From Spirosoma rigui (GTDB taxonomy: Bacteria > Bacteroidota > Bacteroidia > Cytophagales > Spirosomataceae), in NCBI RefSeq assembly GCF_002067135.1, contig NZ_CP020105.1, positions 4,216,001 through 4,280,000 of the forward strand: 64,000 nt of DNA. Direction: 5' to 3'. Shown in pieces: positions 16,933-61,928 of this stretch. Both the position numbers and the translations under genes were made by a program. The notes beneath the pieces are model-generated. The model was not told where the DNA came from. It saw only the letters and a program-made list of their open reading frames with translations, and made no database searches. Position 1 is the stretch's first letter; each line of letters begins with the position of its first letter.

Positions 16933-16940
16933 CCACCAAC

Positions 16941-39760: not shown

Positions 39761-39815
39761 TGCTGACGAAGGAAGCATCTTCGGGAGGCTGTTTTAGATG
39801 CTTCCTTCGTCAGCA
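39761..39815. terminator. 20-bp perfect hairpin after folD
   Basis: Arms 39761-39780 and 39796-39815 are exact complements, with a 15-base loop; about 55 bases beyond the folD stop. Confidence 0.7.
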
Positions 39816-40052: not shown

Positions 40053-40087
40053 AACAGCCCGTCCGGACCCGGACGGGCTGTTTTTTT
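40053..40087 (+). terminator. Intrinsic terminator on the plus strand
   Basis: AACAGCCCGTCCGG (40053-40066) pairs with 40069-40082, followed by a run of seven T. No annotated gene precedes it directly, which suggests an RNA is transcribed from 39816 onward. Confidence 0.75.
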
Positions 40088-40185
40088 GTGTATTTTTGAC
40101 CGCTAAATGCTGACAGGCTCCTGTTTGTCTGTAGCCGTTTTTATTTAAACAGGCTCAACCCTGTGTTACGTTAATCTCCACTCGT

Positions 40186-43140: not shown

Positions 43141-43155
43141 TTGGTTAATCACTTA

Positions 43156-43246
43156 GCAAAAAGCCCGGATCACGTAACGTAGTCCGGGCTTTTTTGCAAT
43201 GAACGAATGCCATATCTCCAAGATATGGCATTCGTTCATTGCAAAA
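43156..43246 (+). terminator. Two tandem hairpins after the DUF2723 gene
   Basis: The first (43156-43195) has AAGCCCGGA and TCCGGGCTT arms with a T run. The second (43192-43246) is a perfect 26-bp stem with a 3-base loop (43218-43220). They share a few bases, so only one may form fully at a time. Confidence 0.75.
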
Positions 43247-43480
43247 CCCAGGGTTCTACCCGCAAACTCATTTACTGGCGTGCGGCTTCTTTAGCTGTTG
43301 CCAATTGAAACACACACGTGGTTCACAGCTGCTGGCTATTTATTCCCCGACGGACACGTCCGGGTGTAAATTGACCATGATTTCACGCCCCGACGTATCC
43401 GTCCGGGAGACGGTACCCCATAAAACGAAACAGCCCCAATCCGTAGGGACTGAGGCTGCTTAAGGAAATATCAGATTAGA
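43247..43480. other. Remainder of the gap before dnaJ
   Basis: No supported gene. It contains two similar 22-base motifs, CCCCGACGGACACGTCCGGG at 43345 and CCCCGACGTATCCGTCCGGG at 43388, and the dnaJ terminator at 43431-43458. Confidence 0.5.
43431..43458 (-). terminator. Terminator of dnaJ
   Basis: CAGCCCCAATCC and GGGACTGAGGCTG form a stem with small mismatches; on the minus strand it is followed by TTTCGTTTTAT. It lies 22 bases past the dnaJ stop. Confidence 0.6.
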
Positions 43481-44650: not shown

Positions 44651-44658
44651 GTAAAGGT

Positions 44659-44708
44659 ATGAATGACATCTGGTTGATACTGTTCATTATCAACCAGATG
44701 TCATTCAT
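44659..44708 (-). promoter_or_regulatory. 21-bp hairpin filling the grpE-dnaJ gap
   Basis: Arms 44659-44679 and 44688-44708 are exact complements with an 8-base loop. On the transcript the hairpin starts 3 bases after the grpE stop and ends 8 bases before the dnaJ ATG. There is no T run after it, so it is not a classical terminator; it may set relative levels or act as a processing or attenuation site. Confidence 0.6.
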
Positions 44709-44711
44709 TTT

Positions 44712-45332
44712 TTAGCTTCCTACAATCACTTTTGCGAACCGAATGACCTTGTCATTCAGGTAATATCCTTTTTCTATTTCGTCAATGACTTTGCCCTTGA
44801 GGTCGTCGCTCGGGGCCGGAAACTGGGTCACCGACTCGTGCAGATCGGCGTTGAAAGGCTCTCCTTTGGCCACCATGGGCTTTAGCCCTTTGCCTTCCAG
44901 CGTCTTGAACAGTTTGGTGTAGATGAGCGAGACACCTTCTTTAAGGGCCGTCACATCATTGGTGTTCTCGATCGACTGCATAGCCCGCTCAAAGTCGTCC
45001 ACGACGGGAATAAGTGCCTGCAGCACCCCTTCGTTCGCGTTGCTGATAAGGTCGAGCTTTTCCTTGGCGGTACGCCGGCGGAAATTTTCGAAGTCAGCAT
45101 AGAGACGCAAGTATTTGTCTTTGAGTTCCGCGACTTCCCGGCTGGCTTTTTCGGCTGCAGATTCCTGAGGAGCTGATTCAGCGGCTGCATCGGTTGGTTC
45201 GCCACCGTTAACGGTCACAGCTTCCTCGGTTGTCAATTCAGTATGTTCGGCCGATGCCGTTTCAGCGGTCAGGTTGTCAGGCTGTTGGGTATCAGTGGAC
45301 TGTTTTTCGTCCATTGTGTCTTTATTTTCCAT
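44712..45332 (-). CDS. grpE: Nucleotide exchange factor GrpE
   Basis: 206 residues from the ATG at 45332. The open frame reaches 45419, but that N-terminus is not protein-like. GrpE releases ADP from DnaK. An acidic, Gln/Thr/Glu-rich N-terminal tail (1-70) leads into the long coiled coil ([20 protein letters not shown] near 72-91) and the C-terminal beta domain ([36 protein letters not shown]). First gene of the grpE-dnaJ operon. It is divergent from queG. Confidence 0.95.
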
Positions 45333-45549
45333 TGATGAACTACTATGTCTCTTCCAGAAATTCATGTGCAAAGATGGGCAAAACAACGGCCAAATCCGCA
45401 TTAACTGCCAGATTGACACACTTTGCCAGACACCGGTTCCGGACGATTACCCAATAGTGGCGGATTTTTTACCAACCAAACGACGTTTATTCCCTGACTT
45501 GCCTGAACAACGTTGGCTATTCATTCCGGAATCAGCGTCCGGCTTACCT

Positions 45550-46491
45550 ATGAATTTATCTAAGACCCGTCATACTCAACTTATTAAAGCCAAAGCCCGG
45601 GAATTGGGTTTTGATTTCTGCGGAGTGGCTAAAGCCGATTTTCTGGAAGAGGAAGCCCCCCGGCTCGAAACATGGCTCAAGAACGGCATGCACGGGCAGA
45701 TGAATTACATGGCCAATCATTTCGACAAGCGACTCGATCCTCGCTTACTCGTTGACGATGCCAAGTCGGTGGTGACCATGCTGCTCAATTATTATCCCGC
45801 ACAACGCCTTCCCGAAGGTGAGTCTGACTACAAGCTGTCAAAATACGCCTATGGTGAGGATTACCACTTCGTCATTAAAGACAAGCTGCGCGAGTTGATG
45901 ACCTATGTACGGGCCGAAATCGGGGAGGTCGGTGGCCGGGCTTTTGTGGATTCGGCCCCGGTCATGGACAAAGCCTGGGCAAAACGGGCCGGGTTGGGCT
46001 GGGTGGGCAAGCATACGAATCTGATCAATCGTGAGATTGGATCGTTCTTCTTCATTGCCGAGCTGATCCTGGATCTCGACCTCGAACCCGACGGTCCCAT
46101 TACCGACTACTGCGGTACTTGCACTCGCTGCATCGATGCCTGTCCAACCGACGCTATCGTTGACCCTTACGTTGTAGATGGCAGTAAATGCATCTCCTAC
46201 TTTACCATCGAACTGAAGGAATCTATTCCGGAAGAAGTCAGGGGACAATTCGACAACTGGGTATTCGGCTGCGACATCTGCCAAGACGTGTGTCCCTGGA
46301 ACCGATTTGCCAAGCCTCACAAAACCCCCGCTTTTACACCCCATCCAGACCTAGAAACCCTGAACCAGCGCGACTGGGAAGAGATTACAGCGGATATTTT
46401 CCAGACAATTTTTCGTCGATCGGCTGTCAAACGGACAAAATTGGCCGGTTTAAAACGAAATGTGTCTTTTTGTAAGCCAAATCGTCCCTAG
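45550..46491 (+). CDS. queG: Epoxyqueuosine reductase
   Basis: 313 residues from the ATG at 45550; the frame is open far upstream but the extra part has no family match. QueG uses cobalamin and two 4Fe-4S clusters to reduce epoxyqueuosine in tRNA to queuosine. [20 protein letters not shown] near residue 15 and [11 protein letters not shown] begin the cobalamin domain, [20 protein letters not shown] follows, and the ferredoxin domain has [16 protein letters not shown], then [15 protein letters not shown]. The HEAT-repeat domain of some QueG proteins is absent. Confidence 0.94.
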
Positions 46492-46613
46492 TGTTATATG
46501 CGGTTAAATAACCATTGACGATAAGAAAAGTTAAGTAGGCAAGACCCGTTAACTTTACTTGGAGTTACATATTGGTTACATTATTTTTTGGCCCATATCC
46601 TCACGCACGCACT

Positions 46614-47252
46614 ATGACACGAGACCGTACACAGACTGAGCAGCGACTTATCGATGCCGTAGGTCAGGAAATTACAGAAAATGGATTTGATAAATTAGGT
46701 ATAAATCGAATTTCGAATCGGGCAGGCGTTAATAAAGTACTGATTTACCGGTACTTTGGTGATCTCAACGGGCTTATCAAGGAATACTACAAACGTACGC
46801 ATCCGATTATTCCGCTGCCGGATATTGATCTGCAGGAACTGAAGGATGCACCACTGGATGAATATTTCGATCGGATGTATGATCAGTTCACCCGCGAGTT
46901 CCGGCGGCTTCGTGCCAACACCGACGCCAAAGAGTTTATCAAGTCGGCATTGACAAGCCCCAATTGGAATCAGAATCCTGCTGCGGGCAACACCGAAGTA
47001 AAGCTCCAGGAAAAAATAGACACACTGTCCGAAATCGTTCAGGAAAAAAACGGTCGGCCAATGGCGGCTATTATGATTAGTGCTATGACCGTATTGACCC
47101 TCATGAGCCACCAGAAACGAACGCTATTTGGTATCGATCTGGCTTCGGAAGAGGGCTGGCAACAAATAGAAGACGCATTGAGCACGCTAAATTATGGCAT
47201 TTACCTGGCCACCAGTGAACGCTTAAGCGGTACGGGCAAAAAAGCGGCTTAA
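46614..47252 (+). CDS. TetR family transcriptional regulator
   Basis: 212 residues from the ATG at 46614 (a TTG at 46572 is less likely). The N-terminal helix-turn-helix reads LIDAVGQEITENGFDKLG, then INRISNRAGVNKVLIYRYFG, with the usual YRYF recognition ending. The C-terminal ligand domain is not specific. Its 3' end overlaps the 3' end of the convergent kynureninase gene by 30 bases, so it may regulate its own region, but target and ligand are unknown. Confidence 0.92.
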   Translation: MTRDRTQTEQRLIDAVGQEITENGFDKLGINRISNRAGVNKVLIYRYFGDLNGLIKEYYKRTHPIIPLPDIDLQELKDAPLDEYFDRMYDQFTREFRRLRANTDAKEFIKSALTSPNWNQNPAAGNTEVKLQEKIDTLSEIVQEKNGRPMAAIMISAMTVLTLMSHQKRTLFGIDLASEEGWQQIEDALSTLNYGIYLATSERLSGTGKKAA

Positions 47253-48521
47253 CGCATCGCCCACGCGCCACACGTCTTCGAAAGTATTATAGAGTGGTGT
47301 GGGGGCCAGTCGGATACAATCGGGTTCACGCCAGTCGCCAATGATACCTTGTTCGGTCAGGTACGTAAATAGTGCCTTCCCCTGCTCACGGACCAGCAGT
47401 GACAACTGACAGCCGCGCTGGTTTGGATCGCTGGGAGTTAGAACAACGATCTGGTCAAACGGAGCCAGCACGTAATCCAGATACCCCGTTAATAGCTCAC
47501 TCTTTGTCCGGAGCGCGCCCATGCCCGCTTCGGCGGTGATGCTCAGCGAGGCCCGATGCAGGGCAAGAGCGGGAATGTTGGGAGTGCTCAACTGCCAGCC
47601 ATCGGCACCCGGTGCGGGCAGAAATCCCGGAGTCATCTCAAACCGTTTGTCCTCCCGATAGCCCCACCAGCCCGCCAGTCTGGGCAGATTGGCCAGGTGG
47701 TGCTTCTCATGGACAAAAACGCCCGAGACAGCCCCCGGGCCACCGTTAAGGTATTTGTAGGAGCACCAGGTTGCGAAATCGACACCCCAGTCGTGTAGCC
47801 GCAGGGGTACATTACCAAGCGCGTGGGCCAGGTCGAACCCAATGGGAATGCACTGTTGCCGGGCGGTTTCGGCGATGGCAGCCATGTTGTACACTTGTCC
47901 GGTATAATAGTTCAGGCCACTCATCCAGATTACAGCCAGTTCGTCGGCGTGGGCGGCAATAGCGTGTTGAATGTCTGTCGTATGAATTAACCCCGTCCTC
48001 TCCTCCGGCCGGGGACCGATCTCGATGAGTACGTCGGTCGGATTCAGTCCATGATGCCTGACGTGCGTTTCCAGGGCGTATTGGTCAGAAGGGAAATCAC
48101 CTTTAATGGTCAGTATTTTGTTTTTCCGGGCATCAGGTCGGTAGAAGGAAGCCAATAACAGGTGAATATTGACGGTCAGCGCGTTCATCGGGCAGACCTC
48201 AACGGGTTCAGCACCGGCAACATGCGCGAGGGCACTTTTGCACGTAGTGTGGTAGCTCAGCCAGGTTTGCTCAGCCAGTTCGGCTTCCGGCTCATGGTTT
48301 CCCGGTTCAAACCACCCCTCTACCCCCAGGTTTTGCCAGGTTGTCAGCTCCCGTTCGAGAGCGGCCCGGGCTGCTTTGGGTTGTAGCCCGAGCGAGTTAC
48401 CACACAGGTACGTCAACGGCCGGCCATCCCGCTGAGGAATATAGAATCGTTCGCGAAACGACCGAAGCGGATCGACCTGGTCAAGTGCCTGAGCAAAGGC
48501 ACGGTTATTTTCGTAAATCAT
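47223..48521 (-). CDS. kynU: Kynureninase
   Basis: 432 residues, ATG at 48521. It cleaves kynurenine or 3-hydroxykynurenine to anthranilate or 3-hydroxyanthranilate with PLP. YLCGNSLGLQPKAARAAL is the N-terminal signature, GDFPSDQYALETHVRHHGLN the PLP ring loop, GFDLAHALGN holds the PLP-binding Asp, and the Schiff-base lysine is in WCSYKYLNGGPGA. RLAGWWGYREDKRFEM and the C-terminal GIIGDWREPDCIRLAPTPLY fit the family. Other kynurenine-pathway genes are not in the window. Its start overlaps the stop of a small upstream frame by two bases. Confidence 0.95.
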   Translation of the reverse strand: MIYENNRAFAQALDQVDPLRSFRERFYIPQRDGRPLTYLCGNSLGLQPKAARAALERELTTWQNLGVEGWFEPGNHEPEAELAEQTWLSYHTTCKSALAHVAGAEPVEVCPMNALTVNIHLLLASFYRPDARKNKILTIKGDFPSDQYALETHVRHHGLNPTDVLIEIGPRPEERTGLIHTTDIQHAIAAHADELAVIWMSGLNYYTGQVYNMAAIAETARQQCIPIGFDLAHALGNVPLRLHDWGVDFATWCSYKYLNGGPGAVSGVFVHEKHHLANLPRLAGWWGYREDKRFEMTPGFLPAPGADGWQLSTPNIPALALHRASLSITAEAGMGALRTKSELLTGYLDYVLAPFDQIVVLTPSDPNQRGCQLSLLVREQGKALFTYLTEQGIIGDWREPDCIRLAPTPLYNTFEDVWRVGDALSRFFARTA

Positions 48522-48733
48522 TCAAGTCGTTTGTAGGTGTACGTCAGCCAAAACACACTGTCTAGCCGGTGAATATAGGCATCAATCTCTTCCAGCCCAC
48601 TTTCCATGCCAATACGGGGCAGGCGGTTACGGACCTGCGAAGGTATGAACAGCCTGATCGATCCAGACGGGTCGTGTGCTGAATCTTGGGAGAAACCGGT
48701 ATCCCTGGTTAAGCTTTTCTGCTCACTGGCCAT
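48518..48733 (-). CDS. Small hypothetical protein upstream of kynU
   Basis: 71 residues from the ATG at 48733; the frame stays open about 25 codons further upstream (reading FCAEPDIPIKNVGVDIDFLL), so the real start may be an alternative codon or the gene may be truncated. The stop TGA overlaps the kynU ATG (ATGA), which suggests translational coupling. The C-terminal half (GLEEIDAYIHRLDSVFWLTY) is protein-like, but no family is recognised. Confidence is limited by size. Confidence 0.4.
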   Translation of the reverse strand: MASEQKSLTRDTGFSQDSAHDPSGSIRLFIPSQVRNRLPRIGMESGLEEIDAYIHRLDSVFWLTYTYKRLE

Positions 48734-49777
48734 CGTACCAAGCAGTAAAAAGTCAATGTCAACGCCAACGTTTTTTATTGGAATATCAGGTTCTGCACAA
48801 AAATGGGCAGACCGTTACGTTGCTCACCGACCTTAGACACTCAGTATCAGCCTATTCATGTCAGCAGTAAGGCTGACTGGATCAGCGGGACTCCACCGAT
48901 GGAATGCACTAAACCCTTGGCACAGCGGTTCCATAGATAAAATTATACTCAGTATACAAATAATTTAGTTAACTAGTCTTTGATTTGCAATCGCGCTTTG
49001 TTCAGAAACGTATTTACATCTTTACAACGATCATCTCTCATGGCAACTACCAATTAGCTGAACCCGATTTCTTCGGCACAGGGCTTTTCAAAGCCAGCGA
49101 TAATCCCCGGTCAGGCCCTTTCAGCAGGGCACCAGGATTTGTTGCGCCACACCCTGTCCCTAGTTCGCTGGTATAAACAATCCGGATTTCGGTGGGCCTG
49201 TTCCGGCCTATCGATTATATCGCTTGTCATTGCGTTGTTTTATGCCATGTCTGCCCTGGAAATTGATCCCGGTGGCATCGGTGATGATTTTGGTGATGTT
49301 TATGATATTCACCTTCCCGCCCAACGGGTAGAGACAGTGGGGTTGTCTCATGCAGCGGTGAAACCGATTCTCGCCCCCCCAACCTTACTCGTCTATCGCT
49401 CCTGCAGCACCTTTCGGGCGTGGCTGATACCGGCCAAGGTAGTCTATATCTGGCCGCCCCCCTGTACAATTATCCTTTATCTTTTTTATCGGGTCCTGCG
49501 GCTATGAGCCGTTATCCAAACGACACTTTTTCGACATAGCCGCTCCTGCTCCGGTAGGACCTGGGTATGCGTGTGTCTGTAGACGACCAAAGCGGACGGA
49601 TACTCCTTCTGTATTGGCCGCTATTGATCGACTTGTCGTTTCCCACTCCCTTTCGCGAAGAACGTAAGGCATCTGTTTGCTATTGAAGCAGACTGATCTG
49701 GCCTGTTTCTTCCAATATCCGCAGAACAGACTCTCTCGAGGCTCATTCCACCATTCATTATTTATATATATAACGTC
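48734..49777. other. Region with no firmly supported gene
   Basis: Over 1 kb between kynU and the Wzi-like gene. One plus-strand frame (49139-49507) is described separately at low confidence. The remaining parts, 48850-49120 and 49510-49770, show no clear coding, no tRNA and no repeats; the composition is intermediate between the GC-rich chromosome and the AT-rich island. Confidence 0.5.
49139..49507 (+). CDS. Doubtful hydrophobic open frame
   Basis: 122 codons from a TTG. One hydrophobic segment (LSIISLVIALFYAMSALEI) is followed by an acidic stretch (DPGGIGDDFGDVYDIHL) and a second hydrophobic end (CTIILYLFYRVLRL). This TM-acidic-TM layout is like that of the small membrane protein at 51546, but sequence similarity is weak. 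There is no ATG and no family match, so this may be a decayed gene or chance. Confidence 0.25.
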   Translation: MLRHTLSLVRWYKQSGFRWACSGLSIISLVIALFYAMSALEIDPGGIGDDFGDVYDIHLPAQRVETVGLSHAAVKPILAPPTLLVYRSCSTFRAWLIPAKVVYIWPPPCTIILYLFYRVLRL

Positions 49778-51418
49778 GTGAACATCCGTTGTTTAGAGCT
49801 TTATTCAAGCTCTTTTGGAGGGCACAAACGCCTGTTCGTCGCGCTGCTTTGTCAGCTTACTCTATTTACAGGCCTCCGTCCAGCAAGCGCGCGGGTCCAT
49901 ATGCCAGATACACTCGGACTACCGCGCGCCCTGCCGTCTCGGGTCAATCAGACCACTGCCGATTCATCGGACAAGCGATCGTTGCAGGGTTGGCTTGAGT
50001 TGGGTGGATTTGCTTCATCCAGCACGTCGACACCATTCTGGCTGCAAGCTAATCAGTTTGGCACCATCCCCGAAACAGCGCCCGCTGGTTTAATGCGCTT
50101 GGGAGTCGGGCTTGGTTATCATCCTGCCTCTGCTGCCAGACGCCGAAAAACCGACTGGGGCTACGGCCTCGAACTCGTCGGTCAAACGGGGCAGGTGAAT
50201 CGACTACTCATTCCGGAGGCTTACATCAAAGCCCGGCTGGGTGTGTTTGAAGCGTTCGCCGGTCGCCGTAAACAAATCGTTGGCCTGGTAGAAAGTAGCC
50301 TTTCGTCCGGTTCGTTTATCTGGTCGGGCAATGCCTTGCCTTTACCACGGGTGCAGATCGGAATTCCAACGTATACAGCGCTCCGGTTTACCCGCAACTG
50401 GATAGCGATAAAGGGTTTCTTTGCACACGGCTGGTTTGGGAATCTACCTTACGTGAGTGGTTCTTTTCTCCACCAGAAAGCCATCTTTTTTCGGTTGGGC
50501 AAAGAGGAGTCGCGTATCCGACTTTATGCATCCTTTAATCACCAGGCGCAATGGGGTGGCTACGCCCCTTTTCTGGAGAGCGACCCCAACAGTTCATTTG
50601 GTGGTCAGTTTCCGACCAGTCTGGAAGCCTACGCACACGTAGTGATCCCCATGAAATCGGATGCGTTAAAGAACCTGTCGAAATTTACGACCTACGACCA
50701 GAACCGGGTCGGTGACCACCGGGGTGCTGCCGAAGCTGCTATAGAGTATCAAACAAAAACGTGGGCGCTCCTATTTTATCAGCAGCACTTTTACGATTTG
50801 GGGCGTAAGCTGTACAATGGACGCAACATTGAAGACGGGCTATACGGTCTGCGCTTTGAGCGAAAGCATCAACCGACGGGTATTCAGGAGGTTATTGTTG
50901 AGTTGTTCAACTCCGGCGGGCAGGGATACATTCAGTTTGGCCGCACACTGGGGGGCGAACCCGAAAACTACTTTATAAATGGGCAGTATCCCGACGGATG
51001 GTCCTACCAGGGGCGTACGATCGGAACACCGTTTATCACCCAGGCCAGCGTTAGTAATGCCGCTTTACCCCGTATCCCTTTCCATGGGTACACGGCTGCC
51101 AATGAGCTGATCACGGGCGACTACGCCATTAACAACAATCGGGTTTGGGCCCTGTATACAGGAATACGAGGGCAGGCGGGTCCCCGATGGGGCTATCAGT
51201 TGAAAGGGTCGTTTAGTCAGAATTACGGCACTTTTCTGGCACCTTTTCCGGGTGGTACAAATCAATATTCAGCCCTTGCCTCGCTATCGAGACGCCTGAT
51301 GTTCCTTCAGGGCTCCACGTTGTTGTTGTCAGTTGGCTATGATGAAGGAAAGTTACTGGCCAGTTCGCGGCAGTATGGCGGATACCTGGGTCTTCGCAAG
51401 ACATGGGCCGGTCGCTAA
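49778..51418 (+). CDS. Capsule assembly Wzi family outer-membrane protein
   Basis: 546 residues, starting at a GTG because no ATG fits a signal peptide (KRLFVALLCQLTLFTGLRPA). The body is a large beta barrel: GWLELGGFASSSTSTPFWLQ near residue 70, AFAGRRKQIVGLVESSLSSG near 170, and LYNGRNIEDGLYGLRFERKH near 345 are Wzi-type features. Wzi helps attach capsule to the outer membrane in Proteobacteria; Bacteroidota homologs are common and less studied. The C-terminal YGGYLGLRKTWAGR ends the last strand. Two small genes for a membrane protein and a LytTR regulator follow on the same strand. Confidence 0.82.
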   Translation: MNIRCLELYSSSFGGHKRLFVALLCQLTLFTGLRPASARVHMPDTLGLPRALPSRVNQTTADSSDKRSLQGWLELGGFASSSTSTPFWLQANQFGTIPETAPAGLMRLGVGLGYHPASAARRRKTDWGYGLELVGQTGQVNRLLIPEAYIKARLGVFEAFAGRRKQIVGLVESSLSSGSFIWSGNALPLPRVQIGIPTYTALRFTRNWIAIKGFFAHGWFGNLPYVSGSFLHQKAIFFRLGKEESRIRLYASFNHQAQWGGYAPFLESDPNSSFGGQFPTSLEAYAHVVIPMKSDALKNLSKFTTYDQNRVGDHRGAAEAAIEYQTKTWALLFYQQHFYDLGRKLYNGRNIEDGLYGLRFERKHQPTGIQEVIVELFNSGGQGYIQFGRTLGGEPENYFINGQYPDGWSYQGRTIGTPFITQASVSNAALPRIPFHGYTAANELITGDYAINNNRVWALYTGIRGQAGPRWGYQLKGSFSQNYGTFLAPFPGGTNQYSALASLSRRLMFLQGSTLLLSVGYDEGKLLASSRQYGGYLGLRKTWAGR

Positions 51419-51545
51419 GTCCCTCAATTTTAGTCGTTGACACCGGCTGTGTTCATTTACCAGCATGTGACCTGTCAACGTCAGGCTTCTCAGCGATGCG
51501 CTGAAGTCTTTCGTTAAGCAGGCAACCTGGTCTTTACGTCTGATC

Positions 51546-51752
51546 ATGAAACAACAAGCGCTGCTGATACTACTAATCGCCATCAGTTTGGCTGGCTTTT
51601 CCGTCTATTGTTACGCCTGGATCGATTGGGTACAGGACCTCAGCGGTGGAGTATATACTACAAACATCTGGGAAGGCTCCTACGAAACGACTGCCCTATT
51701 GATTTACACCGCTGCCGCTTTGCGTTTCATGGCTCGTCGCTTTATCAAATAG
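51546..51752 (+). CDS. Small two-helix membrane protein
   Basis: 68 residues, ATG at 51546. The first helix (LLILLIAISLAGFSVYCYAW) and the second (TALLIYTAAALRFMARR) flank a short polar loop. No family is recognised. It lies 13 bases before the LytTR regulator, so the two are probably cotranscribed; the protein could be a sensor or anchor for it (inference). Confidence 0.55.
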   Translation: MKQQALLILLIAISLAGFSVYCYAWIDWVQDLSGGVYTTNIWEGSYETTALLIYTAAALRFMARRFIK

Positions 51753-51765
51753 CATTTCTCTCCTC

Positions 51766-52221
51766 ATGAAAACGAACGCTAATGTCTATGTGGTCAAACG
51801 CTCACACGCCTTCAAAGGGCAGCAGCTTCGGCTACCTGGTCACCGTCAGCAACAGGATCTCAAATCGATTAAATTGCTGGCTGGTGATGGCAACTATACG
51901 AAAGTATTTCTGCTGGATGCAACCCACCCCCTGATGGTGAGTCATTCGCTGAAATTTTTTGCAGATCAATTACCCGGTTTTATCCGCGTTAGCAGAGGCA
52001 CGCTACTCAATCCAAATGTCATCAGGAAAGTAATACTTGTGCACTCCAAGTTGATGAAGCTGGAACTGACAACAGGTGAATTTATCACGGCATCCCGCCG
52101 ACGCATTTCAACGGTACTGGAGCAGCTTTCGTTGCCACCCTTGAAAGCTACCGAAGAGTCACCTTTAGGAAATGGCATAAATGAGTATTCAGTCAACGGG
52201 TTGCTGGATAGGAGGGCTTGA
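51766..52221 (+). CDS. Stand-alone LytTR DNA-binding protein
   Basis: 151 residues, ATG at 51766. The LytTR domain spans about 30-125: IKLLAGDGNYTKVFLLDATH, FADQLPGFIRVSRGTLLNPN (the basic beta hairpin region) and RRRISTVLEQL. There is no receiver domain, unlike typical LytTR response regulators, so the signal probably comes from a partner such as the small membrane protein in front. The C-terminal 25 residues are polar and unmatched. Such single-domain LytTR proteins are common in Bacteroidota. Confidence 0.82.
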   Translation: MKTNANVYVVKRSHAFKGQQLRLPGHRQQQDLKSIKLLAGDGNYTKVFLLDATHPLMVSHSLKFFADQLPGFIRVSRGTLLNPNVIRKVILVHSKLMKLELTTGEFITASRRRISTVLEQLSLPPLKATEESPLGNGINEYSVNGLLDRRA

Positions 52222-52334
52222 TTTATTCAGCTACGATAGCCTGTTTTAATCAGACGACAACTATTGGGCTACTATGAGTCGCCGGAATACTCTTCTGCTG
52301 ACATCTCTTACGGCGAAGAGTACGCGCATCAAGG

Positions 52335-52446
52335 ATTGAGACCTTGCTTAATAGTCAGACAGTGCTACCCCCTTTCTGTCACAACGACGGTACCTAAAAC
52401 AAAAACGCTCCGATCGACATGATCGGAGCGTTTTTGTTGTGATCAC
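52335..52446. repeat. Imperfect direct repeat, island left copy
   Basis: Read on the minus strand, this copy shares with the tRNA-Leu copy: GTGATCACA against GTGGTCACA, the stem AACGCTC and its complement with loop TGTCG/GGTCG type bases, TTGTGACA, and TAAGCAAGGT, all in the same order and spacing. The other copy is at 61010-61125. Confidence 0.6.
52400..52436. terminator. Hairpin in the left repeat copy
   Basis: CAAAAACGCTCCGATC (52400-52415) pairs exactly with 52421-52436, 5-base loop; A and T runs at both ends make it work in both directions. Same loop and flanks as the hairpin after tRNA-Leu. Confidence 0.8.
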
Positions 52447-52588
52447 TAGAAACATCTTTAAAAAGAACTGATGCATACTATACCCCTTTTTGAATACCTG
52501 CGATCACCCTTTGGCAATGACGCCACCGGGATTACTATGAGATGGTCTAATTTATCGGCACACTGGACTTGCTTAACTTAGCAAGATC

Positions 52589-53790
52589 ATGCAGCAATCA
52601 AGCAGACCCAAAACCCGGCGTAAAGATGATGCTGACTGCTCAGGCAGCCCTGTTCAAAAGTGAAGGCGTCAAAATGTTGGCTAATAGCCAGACAGCGGCC
52701 TATATTTCCAAAGCATTAGATGTTTCAGTGAATCTCATCTACCGCTGGAAGAATCACAACCCAGGGGTAAAAAAAGTAAGTAGCGAGCAAAATGGGCTGG
52801 TGTTAGAAAACCAGCAGTGCAAGGATCGAGTGCGGCAACTAGAAACAGAGCGTGAGGTTTTAAAAATGCCCGGCAGGCGCTCCTGTTTAGCATTTTCAGC
52901 CGACAGACCTGAGGTTACACTATAAACTCATTCATACGCTGACCGATATGTTTACGGTCGAAACACTCTGCTCTGTACTAGGCGTGAGTCGGACAGCTTA
53001 GTATCGTTACCAGCGCGGAGACAGTTACAAACCAACGGTTAAAAAGTGAAAGAAGCAGCCATTGATCGAACAGGTTTTTTGTCAATCATAAGCGCCGGTA
53101 TGAGAGTCGCCGGATTATAGCTAAACAAAAAGAACAAGGCCATGTCACGGGGCGACATCAAGTGCGAACACTTATGAAACTACCGGGGCACCGGTGCGAC
53201 TGGTTTACAGCCAATTCAACCTAAATCATTTGTGCGGCAACGGCCGACCGTCTCGTACAACGGATAGTACCCACGGGAAAGGCTACTGGCCTAACGTATT
53301 ACTAGATCAGTCTTTGCCTTTAGAGCCAGATTCAGTTTGGGTCAGCGGCATAACCTATTTGCCATTGGTTAACGGCGGATGGGCCTATTTAGGAAGCTGG
53401 ATGGATTGGTCCACCACCGCGGTTGTTTTCTCGCAAAGTAGTCAGTTGGCGAGTAGATGACAATATGGAAGATGAGCTGATCGTCATTCCACTGCGACAT
53501 GCATTACAATCGCGTCAGCCGTCACCTGGTCTGATTGCCCATTCGGATCGAGCAGGGCGGCCTGTGCCGTGGTCAATGCGTATCGAGTGCTTTGCACGAG
53601 CTAATCAATTTGTGGCATATTAGGCCCAGTATGAGTCGGGCTGACGATCCGTATGACAATGCTTTTGCGGAGTCATTCTGGATCAGTCCGCCGAAGCGGC
53701 CGTTTGAAAGCGGAATTATTCTGAGGGACATTCTTGCGTGTCGAAGATTCTCGAACTGAAATCTTCGACAGGGCTGCCTGAGCAGTATAT
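52589..53790 (+). pseudogene. Decayed IS3-family insertion sequence
   Basis: Two overlapping frames of an IS3-type transposase are present in pieces. OrfA: MQQSSRPKTRRKDDADC from the ATG at 52589, then shifted, ISKALDVSVNLIYRWKN and RVRQLETEREVLK. OrfB: fragments around 52920-53760 such as DSVWVSGITYLPLVNGGWAY, then shifted, RKVVSWRVDDNMEDELIVI, LIAHSDRAGRP and MSRADDPYDNAFAESF. Stops and frameshifts interrupt both. The first catalytic Asp (normally GDITY) is changed to Gly (SGITY), so even a repaired protein would be inactive. Terminal repeats were not identified with confidence. Confidence 0.8.
53739..53770. terminator. 11-bp hairpin near the end of the IS remnant
   Basis: TGTCGAAGATT (53739-53749) pairs exactly with 53760-53770; 10-base loop. 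It may be an insertion-sequence end structure or a terminator. Confidence 0.45.
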
Positions 53791-53828
53791 CGAAATGTAC
53801 TACATACTGTACATATTTTCAAACTACC

Positions 53829-55454
53829 TTATTTTAATATTTTGTTAATTCGATATAAAAGTACGCCATTATTTAGACTTGCAAGTTGGTATCTATATTT
53901 TTGCTTAATCAATTTATTCATTTCGCTTTGACTAGCCAAAACTTCGTCATTTTGTTTTAATTCATACGGATTTTTAAAGGTTACTTTTTGACCCAAGTCA
54001 TTCAATACATTTGCGTAAATTTTTATATGATGGTTATAATTTGGGTAAACTATAAAAGCATTAGAATCAAGATTAAAGATGTGGCCCGGGTCATTTTTCC
54101 GGCTAACATGTAGCGGCTTTTTAGAATCCCTCGCGAGTCTTATATCGTTTATTTTATCAAAATACATAATGATAGTATAATTTGCCTGAGTATACATATT
54201 ATAAAATATTGAATTGGGCAATTTATCATAAATTGAACGTTGTAAGAGATAACAAATTGGATACACTTCCTTATCCCACTCATGCTCATTGTTATTGTAA
54301 ACCTTACCTAAAATCCGCAAGTAAGGAAAGGCAAATACCACCAATAAGAGTAATATTTTACCCATTACCACTAATGCCTGACTATTGAAAACATTATCGA
54401 CAAATAAATAGAAACGATAGACAAATAGAGCTACCAACAACGCCATAAATGGATAAGAGGGAATCGCATACCAATACAATTTAGTCTGAGAAAATGAAAT
54501 AATTAGCAAATAAGCAGTGGTGAACAGCGTTGCAAAAATAGTGAAGTCATGAGAACATAATTTATTTGAGCTCCAACCTACTAAAATACCTAATGGTACC
54601 ATCCAAATCCAATATTTAAAAGTCCAAGTATACATACGATTTAAATAATAGCCAAAACTACCACTATTCCCTTCATTTACTTTCAAAAAACGTCCACCTA
54701 ATTCATTATCCCACACCGCCTGTATATATCCAGGTGTTTCGTGTTCATGTAAAAGATAATATCCAACTGTAATCATCAAAAAAAATGCACCATCTATATA
54801 TAGCCATTTTGACAGTAATAAGGGTGCTAATTGACGCTTCAGGATAATATATATGATAATAGCAGGCATGAAAATTAACCCTTGCACTCCTTTGGTAAGT
54901 ACTGCCAGACTGAGTGCAATAAAAAATAAATGTAAATAACTTTTTTTCTTAGTATCGATGTATAAGAACAAACTTAGCGAGAAAAGAGTGGTGAATAGAC
55001 AAAGTAAAGCATCATATTCACCAGAACGGCTAGCATGTTCTAGCAGATATCCATCAGAAGTCACCAGTGTTAAAACCGCAAATAATCCAATTTGATAATT
55101 TCTAAAATAAACGATGGAGAAGATAATTATCACTAAAAAAGTCAACACAGCTGCTAAAGCCGATGGTAACCGAATAGCCAATTCGCTAAACCCGATTAAC
55201 TTAATAAACCCAACTTGCAACCAGGTCAATAAAGGGGGCTTAACACTCGACATTTGTGGTTTACCATCGAAGTAAGTCACTAAGTAATTGTTGTTTCTAC
55301 TCATCTCATAAGCACTGAACGTCATAAAAGCCTCATCCCATTGACGAAAAGGCTTTTTATGTAAATTAAGAAAAAGTGGAATGACTATAAGGTGAACAGA
55401 GAGTAGCACGATTAAAACAGTACGATACCTACTAAATAAGGAAAGGATGTACAT
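53829..55454 (-). CDS. GT39-type membrane glycosyltransferase (ArnT/PMT-like)
   Basis: 541 residues from the ATG at 55454 (a TTG at 55490 is disfavoured). FRQWDEAFMTFSAYEMS near residue 38 is the first loop with the GT-C catalytic acid, SSVKPPLLTWLQVGFIKL follows, then about eleven membrane helices and a soluble C-terminal domain after residue 400. Such enzymes move a lipid-linked sugar onto lipid A, a glycan or a protein. Codon use is strongly AT-rich compared with genes before 52 kb, which suggests transfer. No other glycan gene is adjacent; the FkbM methyltransferase lies 4 kb away. Confidence 0.82.
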   Translation of the reverse strand: MYILSLFSRYRTVLIVLLSVHLIVIPLFLNLHKKPFRQWDEAFMTFSAYEMSRNNNYLVTYFDGKPQMSSVKPPLLTWLQVGFIKLIGFSELAIRLPSALAAVLTFLVIIIFSIVYFRNYQIGLFAVLTLVTSDGYLLEHASRSGEYDALLCLFTTLFSLSLFLYIDTKKKSYLHLFFIALSLAVLTKGVQGLIFMPAIIIYIILKRQLAPLLLSKWLYIDGAFFLMITVGYYLLHEHETPGYIQAVWDNELGGRFLKVNEGNSGSFGYYLNRMYTWTFKYWIWMVPLGILVGWSSNKLCSHDFTIFATLFTTAYLLIISFSQTKLYWYAIPSYPFMALLVALFVYRFYLFVDNVFNSQALVVMGKILLLLVVFAFPYLRILGKVYNNNEHEWDKEVYPICYLLQRSIYDKLPNSIFYNMYTQANYTIIMYFDKINDIRLARDSKKPLHVSRKNDPGHIFNLDSNAFIVYPNYNHHIKIYANVLNDLGQKVTFKNPYELKQNDEVLASQSEMNKLIKQKYRYQLASLNNGVLLYRINKILK

Positions 55455-55830
55455 AATGATTATATTGTTAACAAGTGAATAAACTTGCAATACACGTAAA
55501 TTTAATTATGGTATTAATTATACGCCGATTGTGGCTTAAGCGTAATCTATCATTCAAATAACTAATCATTACAAAAAAATAAATTTCTTACATTTTTGCG
55601 AAAACGGAATGTATCTGCCGTTTTCGCAAAATTCGAGAAAGAACCTCTTGACATAAGTGAAGTAGCTGTTACAAAAGCCGTTTCGGCTTTTAATCCTTAT
55701 TTTTGCTATAAAATTACTTACGGCCATCTCTTTTATAGTCGTTTCAAGTGCATACAAGACCTTTGCAAGAGCCAGTGTAGGTGTAGAATAAATCTTTAAA
55801 TGTTTTTAATTATTAACTAAGTCCTCAATT
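55455..55830. other. AT-rich gap with two hairpins and a promoter box
   Basis: No gene; the 67-codon plus-strand frame at 55596-55799 only crosses the hairpins. The hairpin at 55594-55631 has perfect 14-bp arms (TTTTGCGAAAACGG). The 8-bp hairpin at 55673-55691 ends in a T run. TATTTTTG at 55698-55705 fits the -7 box and may drive the small gene at 55831. Confidence 0.5.
55594..55631. terminator. 14-bp perfect hairpin
   Basis: Arms 55594-55607 and 55618-55631 are exact complements with a 10-base loop, upstream of the glycosyltransferase start and of a promoter box. Confidence 0.5.
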
Positions 55831-55995
55831 ATGTTATCCAATATTTTACTCGCATTAGTGGCTATCCCACTTTTTATATTCTTTCTGATTGAAATGCGTC
55901 GGGTTAGCATAAACAAGACAGCAGCGACAATAGCTTGGCTATTGATTATCACTATAGTATTGGCATTCGCTTTTCATAAGAATTTGAGAATCTAA
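55831..55995 (+). CDS. Small two-helix membrane peptide
   Basis: 54 residues, ATG at 55831, not found in larger frames. Two hydrophobic segments (ILLALVAIPLFIFFLIE and IAWLLIITIVLAFAF) are joined by a short basic loop (MRRVSINKTA). Small peptides of this form can be type I toxins or membrane components. No family is recognised. A promoter box at 55698-55705 is 125 bases upstream. Confidence 0.45.
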   Translation: MLSNILLALVAIPLFIFFLIEMRRVSINKTAATIAWLLIITIVLAFAFHKNLRI

Positions 55996-56129
55996 ATGCT
56001 GTGTTGCCTGTATTCAACAGTAGTATGATTCCCACCCCTGTTGTATAGACAGGGATATATTATTCGATTAATATTTGTTTCAAAGTTGAATGATGTTTAA
56101 ACCAATATTTATCTTACACAAATGCTAAC

Positions 56130-56538
56130 TCATTCAAAAATGCCTCTTGCTTTTAAAACCCCTTCTTTCTTCACCTGAAATAATTCGTCTCTATGAGTGC
56201 CCATAAGACAAAACGCTCGATTGTCTTTAATGGTAGAATAAGGTTCAGGATACCACTCCTTAATTTTTTTCAACGCTTAAGGAGCTTACATCAAAGGAAA
56301 CCGGCTTAGCAAACTCAAGCTTTATTGCTTTCAATGATTTGCGGTGGTACTCGTCGAATTTGTACGGATTACCACAACTAGTCCATTTGCCTTCTTTGGT
56401 TTTGTATACGTCGAAGTATTTCTCATGATACCACTCTTCATTGTGTTGGGATACAAACAAAAGTACGTAAAAATGAGGTTCCTGATCATCGAATGTTTGC
56501 ACATCGCGCCCACTAAAACTAGGTAAACTATCTGGCAA
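56130..56538 (-). pseudogene. Hypothetical gene with a single frameshift
   Basis: The frame starting at a TTG (56538) reads GRDVQTFDDQEPHFYVLLFV, ..QHNEEWYHEKYFDVYKTKEG.. and stops after SSLSVEKN. If one A is removed from the run of seven A near 56266 (minus strand), the frame continues as IKEWYPEPYSTIKDNRAFCL, then MGTHRDELFQVKKEGVLKAR, and stops at 56130. That gives a protein of about 137 residues. A stop lies two codons before the TTG, so the N-terminus may also be lost. No family is recognised. Basic, polar, no membrane segment. Confidence 0.55.
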
Positions 56539-56594
56539 AATGACTTATAGGTGACAGGTAATCCGGGTAAGAGGAAGGATACTGCTAGCTAATC

Positions 56595-57167
56595 ATGAAG
56601 ACATTGCAAAAGGACCAGTATTGGGCTTATCTACTGTTGGCAGCCCGTGTACTCTTAGCCTGGACGCTATTTCGCTACGGCTGGGCCAAACTGACTGATA
56701 AACAATTTGGTGTTGATGAGAAGACAATGAATCTGCCCCTAAAGGATGTGGGCTTGTTCCAGCTCTCTTTGTATCTAGCCGATCAACAACCCTTCAAAGC
56801 GTTTGTTGGCGTATCTCAACTTGTTACAGCCTTACTTTTGAGTATGAATCGAACGGCTCTGCTGGGTGCTTTTTTCTCTATTCCTATTTGGCTTAACATC
56901 TTACTGTGGGATATGACATTTATGGAAGGATTTACTAGCGCATTCACCTTTCGCCTATCGTTTTATTTACTCCTGACCGCTCTTCTACTCTATCAAGCTA
57001 AATCGCAAGTCTCACCTGCCTTGCTGACTATTACGAGCCGATCCAGCAACCCAATCAGCTTCCCTGTGTGGACTTATTTTCTGCTACCACTTGCCGCCAT
57101 TGGGCTTGAAGTGATTGGTGCGATTCCCAATGCTCTTGTGTACTACGGGCAACTGTTGGTAAAGTAG
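56595..57167 (+). CDS. DoxX-like membrane protein
   Basis: 190 residues, ATG at 56595. Four or five hydrophobic helices: ARVLLAWTLFRYGWAKL, FKAFVGVSQLVTALLLSM, LLGAFFSIPIWLNILLW and LSFYLLLTALLLYQ, plus one near the C-terminus. The first helix with FRYGWAKL resembles DoxX-family proteins, but the Cys/Gly features of the BT_3928 type are absent. Codon use fits the AT-rich island. The next gene begins 98 bases later; the function is unknown. Confidence 0.7.
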   Translation: MKTLQKDQYWAYLLLAARVLLAWTLFRYGWAKLTDKQFGVDEKTMNLPLKDVGLFQLSLYLADQQPFKAFVGVSQLVTALLLSMNRTALLGAFFSIPIWLNILLWDMTFMEGFTSAFTFRLSFYLLLTALLLYQAKSQVSPALLTITSRSSNPISFPVWTYFLLPLAAIGLEVIGAIPNALVYYGQLLVK

Positions 57168-57265
57168 TGGCTGCTACCGCTTATTCAGCTGAATTTATAA
57201 AGATTCTGGCACTGTACCCGAAGAATTTTCCGTACAAAACGTTACGTTTCTAAACTCGTATTATC

Positions 57266-57682
57266 ATGAAAAACACCATACGTACCCTGCTTATTTTAGG
57301 GGGCCTAAGCAGCTCAACGACTTTATTGGCTCAAGTGAATGTCACGACCGAGGTAAGTGGCGATGCTTCGACGGGTAAACAATTAATCCAGGCCAAAGTA
57401 ACGGGTGGATCTGGCCAGTACAGTTACGCCTGGGGGCTGACTACGCCCGGTGCTGTACCGCCCAACAGTGCATCGGACGTTTTGTTGGTACCCACTCAAG
57501 AAGCCGAATACATTGTCTTTGTTCGAGACAAGCAGACGGGCGCGAGTGCTTTTTCGACAATCGTCGTAAAAACAGGAGCTGTGAACGAAAAGCACCTGAT
57601 CAGAATGCCTGGCGAAGGCAACAAACTGAAGCTCCGTTATTCGGCAACCGGAGCGCTACCGGCTGATCCAGCTAAAAAGTAG
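57266..57682 (+). CDS. Secreted protein with a single Ig-like/PKD-like domain
   Basis: 138 residues. Signal peptide MKNTIRTLLILGGLSSSTTL, cleaved after LLAQ. The mature part reads TGGSGQYSYAWGLTTPGAVP, then EAEYIVFVRDKQTGASAFST, a pattern like PKD/SprB-type repeats, with strands and a C-terminal strand. No type IX signal is clear. Followed by a perfect hairpin terminator. Confidence 0.65.
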   Translation: MKNTIRTLLILGGLSSSTTLLAQVNVTTEVSGDASTGKQLIQAKVTGGSGQYSYAWGLTTPGAVPPNSASDVLLVPTQEAEYIVFVRDKQTGASAFSTIVVKTGAVNEKHLIRMPGEGNKLKLRYSATGALPADPAKK

Positions 57683-57686
57683 TTAG

Positions 57687-57730
57687 AACGATCTACAGCA
57701 TTGATTATATCGCTAATGCTGTAGATCGTT
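57687..57730 (+). terminator. 16-bp perfect hairpin terminator
   Basis: AACGATCTACAGCATT (57687-57702) pairs exactly with 57715-57730, 12-base loop, followed by a short T run; ends the secreted-protein gene. Confidence 0.75.
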
Positions 57731-57876
57731 TTAAGGTTAATACGTAAGCACTTATACAACAGATATTCAATTAATGCTGGCGATTTAACTAAATAAGCAT
57801 TTTTATGAGTTTATACTTTTGAAACAACCACATACAGGCTTCGTTGGAAGAAAATGTTTATCCGAAACCTTATACC

Positions 57877-58569
57877 ATGCGCTCTCTTTCCATTACAACA
57901 TCACTTGTTTTTACAGGCACAATGGTTGGTCTGCTTCAATTCGGAAGTTTGAGTTCATATGCCCAAAACAGTAATTTGGAACAGTGTCTTGAAACACTAC
58001 ACAAAACCAGGCAGGCTATAAATCAGAGTAGAGTTCCAAATCAACAGGCACTTTTTCCAGCCCTAGATCCTACCTATCAACAGCATAAACAGAATTACGA
58101 AAATTGGGCAGAATGTGTCAAAGGTAGAAAAGCACCTTTGACGTTTGTCCAGACACTGGATGGCAAATCGTATGATGTCGCTACTTTCTCGGGGAAGATC
58201 TTGGTAATAAATTTTTGGTCTACTACCTGTTTACCTTGCATTGCAGAAATGCCAGCTTTAAATAAACTCGTCAAAGAATATCAGGAAAACAATGTTCTTT
58301 TCCTTGGTTTTGCAGGGGATAAAGCGACAAGATTGACATCTGCTTTTTTTACGAAGCATCCCTTTGATTTTGAAATTATACCCGAATCACAAAACATGAT
58401 GAGTCTATTCCATACAAATACTTTACCTACCACTTATATCATAGATCAGCACGGAATTATTCGCAAAGCTTGGATGGGTCTAGACAGTAACAATGAAATG
58501 GATAAACTCGCTCCCTATTACAAAGCTAAATCAGTTATTGATGATCTATTAATAACTTCTGGCAAGTGA
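57877..58569 (+). CDS. TlpA-like thiol-disulfide oxidoreductase
   Basis: 230 residues from the ATG at 57877; the frame is open to 57844 but the TTG there is disfavoured. The signal peptide is MRSLSITTSLVFTGTMVGLL (cleaved near AYAQ-like SYAQNS). The thioredoxin domain runs from about 88: APLTFVQTLDGKSYDVATFS, then INFWSTTCLPC with C118 and C121, NNVLFLGFAGDKA, and TLPTTYIIDQHGIIRKAW with the cis-Pro. It acts in the periplasm, reducing disulfides for cytochrome maturation or other targets. Codon use is AT-rich. Confidence 0.82.
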   Translation: MRSLSITTSLVFTGTMVGLLQFGSLSSYAQNSNLEQCLETLHKTRQAINQSRVPNQQALFPALDPTYQQHKQNYENWAECVKGRKAPLTFVQTLDGKSYDVATFSGKILVINFWSTTCLPCIAEMPALNKLVKEYQENNVLFLGFAGDKATRLTSAFFTKHPFDFEIIPESQNMMSLFHTNTLPTTYIIDQHGIIRKAWMGLDSNNEMDKLAPYYKAKSVIDDLLITSGK

Positions 58570-58673
58570 AATAAAAAGTGCTGTTTTTATCTACTTATAT
58601 TTTGTTCGAATTATCTATACTTATCTCTATAAACGTAAAAGTACTTATGTAACATTCTAAGATCTAATTCACA

Positions 58674-59424
58674 ATGGCGCTACAAACAGTTAAAATTTTT
58701 GCTATCATACTGCTAGGACTAGCTCTATCTTTTCCAGGGTTTAGCAAAAAAAACTCCTGATTTCTACAGGTACTAAATTAGTAGACACATCCTTTGTCCG
58801 ACTTATTGAGCATTTTGACGAGCAGAACCGATTACGGGAAGATACTCTTCAACTTCCTACCTTACTAGCTACCGAAAAGTATAATATTATTCTTGCAGAT
58901 TCCGCTTTGCATTTGACCAAACAGCGTCGAGTATTGACCAACCCGTTTAGTTCAGATAAATACCCCCCTTTCCTACTTAGTATTCTATCAGAATTATCTA
59001 GTAAGTTTGTTCAGCCCCGGGTACTTTACTTGTTTCCCTGTCGATAATTGGAGACGCAACCTAACCCTAGAGAAACAGTTGAATTCCAAACGATTTTAGT
59101 GACACTGGTTGATTGACGGTCAACTGATTGGTTTAGCTGCTAGACAGTACTGGCAGTTTACGACTGAAAACAAATGGCAACCTCACAGATGGTCAGTACC
59201 TTTTGGAGAGCGGCCTAAGCTATTTGAAGACACTTCCTATCTGGTATATAATGAATGTAATGGGGAATTTGGAGGACGATTTCTCTTCTTTGATAAGCAG
59301 ACTTATCCTTCTTTATGATTCCGAAAAGGGTAAAAAGGTTGGAATCCGCTGTATTACACTGACTATTAACCTGATTATACTTGACAATCTCTTCCTGGCT
59401 GTCGAAACCAACGAAAGTGTGTAA
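58674..59424 (+). pseudogene. Decayed hypothetical gene
   Basis: The ATG at 58674 opens a frame with a signal peptide (MALQTVKIFAIILLGLALSF) and soon stops after a run of eight A near 58748. With one A added the frame continues as LLISTGTKLVDTSFVRLIEH, then TLQLPTLLATEKYNIILADS, and so on to a stop near 59045. Further pieces in other frames (RQYWQFTTENKWQPHRWSVP, YLVYNECNGEFGGRFLFFDK) continue to 59424. At least three frameshifts are needed, so this is a pseudogene. No family is recognised. Confidence 0.55.
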
Positions 59425-59572
59425 AAGGAAAAAAAAGACTGCTGACTAAAGCATATTAAATTATACTCGCAATCCTGTTATCATGATAAGTAAATAAATT
59501 AAAGTAAAACAGAAAATAATTTCTCTACCTATATTTATATCCTTCAGCCAAATGCGCAAATTTAATATATTA

Positions 59573-60406
59573 CTACTGACGCTTACAAAATATATTCAAC
59601 TGATTTTCGAAACCTTTTTTTTCATTATCATGAAAAGGGTACCTTACACCACCGATTGCAGGTTGTATAATATACCTAAACCCAGCCCTTTTTAACAAAT
59701 CTAATATCTCGCCTAGTTGCTGAGGCTCATTATACATGCCATGGTATTCTAGAAATATAAAAGGGATTTTACTAATTAATTGCTCAATATCTGGCATTAA
59801 CTTATTCTCAGCACCCTCTATATCTATTTTCAAAAAATCAACATCGTTCGCTCGCAAATAATCTTTTAAATCAACTGCTTGCACTAAATACTTCCTATCA
59901 TTATTCTCTATGTAATTAATTGTTGTAGAGCCTGCTAGAGATCCTTCTGAAAAAAAATTCAATTCAGTGTTTTCTATCCAAACTGCGGCATTGTGAATAT
60001 TTACATCACTAAAACCACTTGCATTGATATTTGCTGTTAATAAATCAAATATATTACTATCTGGCTCGAATCCAATAATTTTTGCTTTCGGAAATTTACT
60101 CTTGAAGTATAAAATACTTAAACCAATATTGGATCCACAATCAATAATCGTTGGGTTATCTTTTTCAGGAATAAAATTGTAAACTTCATTTATGAATATC
60201 TCTTCAACAGAATGAAGGAATCCAATAGCGTCAGCGTATTTTATGTCGTAGCTCAGAAACTTCGCTTTTCCACCTTCGAATCTGTCTGTCGATATAATTC
60301 GTTGGTATTCACGAAGGTCCATATATTGGAAATATGGGTTTTTAAACTTAAACCTTTTGGCTACTTTTTTAATTGCCTTGACAAGTTCTTTTTTTGTGTG
60401 GATCAT
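59573..60406 (-). CDS. FkbM family methyltransferase
   Basis: 277 residues, ATG at 60406. The SAM-binding region is NPTIIDCGSNIGLSILYFKS, then KAKIIGFEPDSNIFDLLTAN and IDIEGAENKL, the FkbM pattern. FkbM enzymes methylate sugar or other hydroxyl groups, often in surface polysaccharide loci. The protein begins with a basic helix and has no membrane segment. It is strongly AT-rich in codon use, as is the GT39 gene in the same island, and the two may act on one surface glycan (inference). Confidence 0.85.
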   Translation of the reverse strand: MIHTKKELVKAIKKVAKRFKFKNPYFQYMDLREYQRIISTDRFEGGKAKFLSYDIKYADAIGFLHSVEEIFINEVYNFIPEKDNPTIIDCGSNIGLSILYFKSKFPKAKIIGFEPDSNIFDLLTANINASGFSDVNIHNAAVWIENTELNFFSEGSLAGSTTINYIENNDRKYLVQAVDLKDYLRANDVDFLKIDIEGAENKLMPDIEQLISKIPFIFLEYHGMYNEPQQLGEILDLLKRAGFRYIIQPAIGGVRYPFHDNEKKGFENQLNIFCKRQ

Positions 60407-61076
60407 TGGTAATTGGTTAAATTTTCGTGTATTATTTTTCCATTTATTCTACAATGAAAATCACAAATTAAGCTACCAGTTCAACTTCATTAATGCAATC
60501 AAAAAGGCGTTATCTTTGGTAAGACGTACTGATGATCAACTGAAATTTGATAACCGTATCTTACTCAAACAAGATAGGTAATTATTAAGATTACCTAAAT
60601 ATCTTACATTATAAGACGTGAAGCTAATTAAATTACTACCCCCACTGTTGCTCTGCGGCAGGGATATCAATACTTTATAAAAAATATCATGTGCGTTTCG
60701 GCAAGTTCCGAATCTTCTCTTGCTAGGCTAAAAAACCATTTTTTGCCAGCCACTCTTCCTTTCTATCCAGACTGATTCCTTTGTCATTTTTGAGCATACT
60801 GGAAAACTGCCGCGTAGGTTAGTGCCCCATCTCCATACCATCCGATAGGCGTTCACTTTTGGTAGGTAAACTCACCGCTTACGAATGATATTTTCCTGCT
60901 GTTCAGACCAGGACCCATACGCCAACGCCCACTATTTGGACAGATCATCGTCGGCTGGTTTACTCAGAAATGGAAGCTTGTAGGGGTAATTCTTAGACAT
61001 TTTCGGGCGAGTAAAACCTTGCTTAGAAACTAAGACGTTCTGCCACGTTTTTGTCACAAAGGTGGCAACAAAAACA
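60407..61076. other. Decayed DNA downstream of tRNA-Leu
   Basis: No intact gene. On the minus strand, after an ATG at 61000, MSKNYPYKLPFLSKPADDD is followed by a stop, ALAYGSWSEQQENIIRKR by another, and a different frame ends ISLDRKEEWLAKNGFLA near 60730. These look like the remains of one gene of about 90-110 codons with at least two frameshifts. The 60430-60640 part is AT-rich and featureless. Confidence 0.45.
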
Positions 61077-61125
61077 AAAAACGCTCAAATCGACCTGATT
61101 TGAGCGTTTTTATGTGTGACCACGG
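61010..61125. repeat. Imperfect direct repeat, tRNA-Leu copy
   Basis: The DNA from the last bases of tRNA-Leu to about 61010 is similar to 52335-52446 over about 110 bases, with the same order of elements: tRNA end, terminator hairpin, TTGTGACA and TAAGCAAGGT (all on the minus strand). Confidence 0.6.
61077..61111 (-). terminator. Terminator of tRNA-Leu
   Basis: AAAAACGCTCAAATC (61077-61091) pairs exactly with 61097-61111, loop GACCT, with A and T runs on both sides; 6 bases past the tRNA end. Confidence 0.8.
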
Positions 61126-61198
61126 GGAGACTCGAACTCCCATGCCTTGCAGCACCACCCCCTCAAGATGGCGTGTCTACCAGTTTCACCACGTGGCC
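61117..61198 (-). tRNA. tRNA-Leu(GAG)
   Basis: An 82-base class II tRNA. The acceptor GGCCACG pairs with CGTGGTC (one G-U). The anticodon arm CCATC-TTGAGGG-GGTGG gives GAG, the long variable arm TGCTGCAAGGCA is present, and the T arm is GGAGTTCGAGTCTCC. CCA is not encoded. Its 3' end coincides with the end of the repeat that recurs at 52.4 kb. Confidence 0.96.
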
Positions 61199-61849: not shown

Positions 61850-61855
61850 CTTTCG

Positions 61856-61928
61856 TGATCCGGCTGGGATTCGAACCCAGGACCCATACATTAAAAGTGT
61901 ATTGCTCTACCAGCTGAGCTACCAAATC
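61856..61928 (-). tRNA. tRNA-Lys(UUU), second copy
   Basis: 73 bases, identical to 16860-16932 except for the fourth base (T instead of C) in GATTTGG, which gives a second G-U pair in the acceptor. The anticodon is UUU. CCA is not encoded here (the next bases are CGA), unlike the first copy. A divergent promoter box lies at 61978-61985. Confidence 0.96.

Follow-up and report, generated by a model that had tools for sequence, protein, structure and literature searches.

Probable repeated insertion of mobile DNA beside tRNA-Leu(GAG) in Spirosoma rigui, with the remnant of an integrase start in both copies of a repeat

Mobile DNA has probably been inserted at least twice beside the tRNA-Leu(GAG) gene found at positions 61116–61198 (minus strand, detected with ARAGORN) of the window, that is, the stretch of 64,000 nucleotides from Spirosoma rigui analysed here. 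Insertion of mobile DNA beside tRNA genes is an ordinary route of island gain in bacteria, and the system in the window is a heavily decayed case of this familiar biology. What is new is that each of the two copies of a repeat that follows this tRNA contains the beginning of a dead integrase gene. We consider it likely that elements of the same family integrated in tandem at this gene, and that both have since decayed.

The repeat downstream of tRNA-Leu(GAG) and its integrase remnants

An earlier note on this DNA had claimed that the sequence following the tRNA recurs in the same orientation at 52335–52446, and this was confirmed by pairwise alignment. The distal copy (copy 2), located approx. 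8.7 kb away, is 70% identical to the tRNA-proximal copy (copy 1) over approx. 110 bp. The aligned span goes from the last bases of the tRNA through a terminator to TTGTGACA and then to TAAGCAAGGT. The two copies align with a local score of 85, far above the value of 15.3 ± 2.3 (maximum 28) obtained from 1000 dinucleotide shuffles, and the part that follows the terminator, taken alone, scores 36, the highest of 2000 shuffles being 28. Both terminator hairpins are on the minus strand, at 61077–61111 in the proximal copy (alignment and terminator searches) and at 52402–52434 in the distal copy (terminator searches of the window and the genome). The distal hairpin is accompanied by a tRNA-end-like octamer, GTGATCAC, at 52439–52446 on the same strand, whose counterpart in the tRNA is GTGGTCAC. 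This repeat at the far boundary is diverged and the tRNA itself is matched over 8 palindromic bases only; a second tRNA body was looked for upstream of the octamer in copy 2 and none was present.

A strong hairpin is present in all 33 trailers of tRNA-Leu(GAG) in Spirosoma, which speaks for the idea that the repeat is a common tRNA trailer or a chance match. Nevertheless, the terminator core occurs twice in the window versus 0 expected, and when up to 3 mismatches are allowed the whole genome of 5,828,404 bases contains only the two repeat copies. The trailing motif TTGTGACA...TAAGCAAGGT is also restricted genome-wide to these two copies and was found in 0 of the 58 relatives searched, and the shuffles never reached the observed score. 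Since terminator and motif are confined to two genome sites and the motif is absent from these relatives, a terminator family shared by many tRNAs, named in the earlier note as a possible refutation, is ruled out, and the probability that we assign to a common trailer or to chance is negligible.

The DNA that follows the terminator in copy 1 is the remnant of an integrase gene (integrase 1, 60848–61057, minus strand), which comprises the first approx. 70 codons with internal stops and has a GTG start 58 bases past the last base of the tRNA, as seen by translated search and read-through. An independent translated search (60848–61054) gave 61% identity to residues 2–70 of P0001, with an E value of 8e-24; the read-through translation is VTKTWQNVLVSKQGFTRPKMSKNYPYKLPFLSKPADDDLSK*WALAYGSWSEQQENIIRKR. 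Hence, the decayed frame that had been noticed directly downstream of the tRNA is the recombinase gene located at the element end next to the RNA gene, and given that it is broken, it has no activity at present. In copy 2, read-through, alignments and shuffles point to a decayed start of a second integrase (integrase 2, 52341–52384, minus strand) of about 15 codons, TTGTGACA...TAAGCAAGGT, that reads VTERG*HCLTIKQGLNP. Its distance from the tRNA-end-like GTGATCAC is the same as in copy 1, the spacing between tRNA end and integrase start being 58 bases in copy 1 and 56 bases in copy 2. The motif is coding sequence and corresponds to the first approx. 15 codons of a tyrosine recombinase that starts approx. 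60 bp past the tRNA. Of the two element heads that would be present at one site, the first is clear, and the second consists of the tRNA end, the terminator and approx. 15 codons only. The statement that no intact integrase remains also holds, given that both copies keep only N-terminal fossils. No significant integrase similarity was detected in copy 2 past codon 15 or so, despite a suggestive multiple alignment, so that its past as a complete element is an inference.

The integrase family and tRNA-Leu(GAG) in related genomes

In several Spirosoma congeners, the tRNA-Leu(GAG) trailer consists of a terminator of this kind and, about 60 bp past the tRNA, a frame that begins MAKKWQKLLINK(H/Q)GL..RPKMPKNYPYK. 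In S. profusum BT702 this integrase frame is nearly intact, being open for >320 residues; it has a match to the PHROGs integrase family (E 2e-16) and a weak one to a phage-integrase SAM-like domain, and an intact relative of the integrase matches Phage_integrase. The relatives align with conserved blocks RP..ELR, KHTG and RHS..QT..YLRDLG, a layout that can be read as that of a tyrosine recombinase. A tRNA or tmRNA gene ends no more than 400 bp before the integrase match in 27 of the 36 testable loci, i.e., those with enough upstream sequence, and these RNA genes include tmRNA as well as tRNAs for Leu(CAG), Leu(GAG), Ala, Pro, His, Ser and Met. The typical distance between tRNA and integrase in close relatives is approx. 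60 bp, as in both copies of the window. The family targets RNA genes, and Spirosoma thus has integrases that are directed to tRNA and tmRNA genes and lie at an almost constant spacing from them. The Cytophagales loci L153–L164 (Spirosoma, Larkinella and Dyadobacter) carry the same family roughly 60–130 bp past a tRNA or tmRNA gene, mostly as intact frames, in contrast with the window, where only N-terminal fossils are present. Regarding direct repeats that could close these elements, the intact S. profusum element gave only a 13-bp match located 26 kb away, which is not significant, and none were seen within approx. 20 kb of sequence for two tmRNA elements.

Other insertions at the same gene define tRNA-Leu(GAG) as an integration hotspot in Spirosoma. 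One congener (G007) has a 20.2-kb element between tRNA-Leu(GAG) and a perfect 37-bp direct copy of the tRNA 3' end. This element shares tRNA target and genus with the window; however, it has a different terminator and a different integrase, which is an integrase-like gene (named from its sequence, no domain search) placed at the far end. In two other congeners, a copy of the tRNA end followed by a terminator of the class found in the window lies 59 kb (G029) and 77 kb (G013) downstream of the tRNA; the trailer that now follows this tRNA belongs to another class, and the displaced copy of G013 retains the integrase start. Each of these distant copies is an older head that a newer insertion has displaced.

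Among 33 genomes, 12 classes of tRNA-Leu(GAG) trailer can be distinguished. This diversity was considered as proof of element turnover and was dropped as evidence because the trailers of the neighbouring tRNA-Lys are just as variable (13 classes in 28 genomes), and no integration was noticed there. The window itself has two tRNA-Lys(TTT) genes, at 16860–16935 and 61855–61928, 45 kb apart. In five of the loci (L060, L061, L064, L068 and L069), the tRNA-Leu(GAG) trailers carry pairs of TGNAACA-like repeats, spaced by about 11 bp and resembling integrase arm sites, followed by a short frame around 'NKRFF.AIDELVKR'.

The proposed order of the insertions

The att repeats produced by a single integration share only what attP and attB had in common beforehand. 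In the window, the shared part runs through the terminator into the integrase start and, therefore, the target would already have held a head of the same family; for this reason, the head of an older member of this family is a better reading of copy 2 than a simple attR. The succession of events would be as follows. The tRNA-Leu(GAG) gene would be the site for elements with a tyrosine-recombinase gene about 60 bp past the tRNA 3' end, and the terminator between the tRNA and this gene would be carried in the att region of the element. The first element, on integrating, would have rebuilt the tRNA 3' end and added the terminator that it carried. Later, another element of this family would have entered the same tRNA, shifting the first head (tRNA end, terminator and integrase start) outward. 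Both would then have decayed, leaving the newer integrase broken after approx. 70 codons and the older one cut to approx. 15 codons, and an IS3-type element would have landed beside the older head.

Two other explanations were weighed against this succession. The presence of only one element, with the 61 kb copy as attL and the 52.3 kb copy as attR, would agree with the common orientation of the copies, with their start at the tRNA end and with an AT-rich interior that stops at copy 2; nevertheless, an integrase start on both sides is not produced when one element enters an empty site, and would require an att site in which the same family was already present, so that we regard this explanation as unlikely. 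Of the diverged att-type repeats claimed in the earlier note, the repeat itself stands and its interpretation as a simple attL/attR pair is the less likely one, both copies holding the integrase start; a long 'att repeat' can in reality be two integrase heads. In the second explanation, the tRNA trailer together with the integrase start was duplicated locally, with no mobile element involved, and insertions then parted the products. The duplicated part is short and the two copies are mutually nearest (70% identity versus at most 61% to other sequences, bootstrap 85, about 110 sites), a sister grouping that would fit tandem integration and local duplication equally. However, the break at the tRNA end, with no tRNA body, is at the place expected for site-specific integration, and displaced heads are found at the same tRNA in congeners; a local duplication thus seems quite improbable.

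Tandem integration has a parallel in the ssrA islands of Dehalococcoides: successive integrations are marked downstream of ssrA by partial copies of the RNA-gene 3' end, the integrase adjoins the RNA-gene end, the cargo is strain-specific, and some (older) islands have no integration genes of their own (PMC3146451). The window would resemble these islands in the repeated integration at one RNA gene, the partial 3'-end repeats and the adjacent integrase; in contrast, the Dehalococcoides islands involve a serine recombinase, ssrA and 20-bp repeats (PMC3146451), and the window a tyrosine recombinase and tRNA-Leu, with two heads only and without an intact integrase. Regarding Spirosoma islands at tRNA genes, the titles and opening lines of abstracts retrieved from the literature held nothing relevant, and no publication on the att/terminator combination in Bacteroidetes was found. 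As a tentative generalization, it is possible that every successive element of one family arrives with a tRNA terminator of its own as part of its att region, and that the stacked terminator-plus-integrase heads of the Spirosoma tRNA-Leu(GAG) array form a readable record of integration.

The variable segment and its putative cargo

The nearest syntenic relative (G012, locus L049) is colinear on the tRNA side and, after a break in synteny that extends from the tRNA trailer to 48,586, becomes colinear again to the left of this position (chromosomal flank 38604–48586). Between these flanks the relative has 1.43 kb, with a terminator of the same class and a truncated integrase start, versus 12.5 kb in the window. 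The left boundary had been placed at 52,335 in the earlier note; this has to be corrected, given that the variable segment reaches 3.7 kb further left. Its proposal of an integration at the tRNA 3' end is in turn supported by the decayed integrase after the tRNA, the base composition, the break in synteny and the clean elements of congeners at the same tRNA. Within the flank, at 43344–43411, there is an imperfect intergenic palindrome of approx. 68 bp with matches in both orientations, which has a counterpart at the matching place in the relative (L049, 7608–7676).

The left part of the segment that is not colinear (48587–52438) contains Wzi-like and LytTR genes, recognised by their domains, and the genes between 48.6 and 52.3 kb have a near-normal GC content (0.505). 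Congeners have relatives of the Wzi-like and LytTR genes grouped at other locations, and in G012 the relative of the Wzi-like gene is on another contig. The group formed by a small protein, the Wzi-like and the LytTR genes (49058–52221) recurs as such at other chromosomal places in congeners. This part is possibly the cargo of the older element or a chromosomal module that was moved; a third repeat closing the array at 48.6 kb was not seen.

The region 52447–60847 would be the cargo carried by the newer element. Its GC content is 0.382 versus 0.541 in 1–48586, in agreement with the AT-rich interior that had been described. No transfer genes (relaxase, coupling protein or mating pore) were recognised in a Pfam scan of the main frames from 48.6 to 61.1 kb, and for this reason the element is not classed as ICE or IME; these genes may have been lost by decay. 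Plasmid records were compared and gave no informative match. At 52551–53780 (plus strand) there is a broken transposase remnant, for which a dead IS3 element had been claimed; the broken frames bear this out, and the rve match, found in one fragment, is weak (E 4e-4, below cutoff), so that the remnant is consistent with a dead IS3-type element. The intact frames code for a GT39/PMT_2-type glycosyltransferase (53829–55490, minus strand; PF13231, E 2.5e-16), a DoxX-like membrane protein (56595–57167, plus strand; PF07681, E 1e-4, just under the cutoff), a TlpA/AhpC-TSA-like thioredoxin-fold protein (57844–58569, plus strand; PF00578, E 4e-18) and an FkbM-type methyltransferase (59573–60406, minus strand; PF05050, E 6e-16), the first and the last being the glycan genes that had been predicted. 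The GT39 gene was found in 0 of the 35 congeners searched, and for FkbM only diverged homologues were detected in the congeners searched, the best with 58% identity; relatives with the same genes at an unrelated site, the refuting condition of the earlier note, were not seen for these two genes. A further cargo gene, at 58674–59320, is frameshifted and visible as several broken frames.
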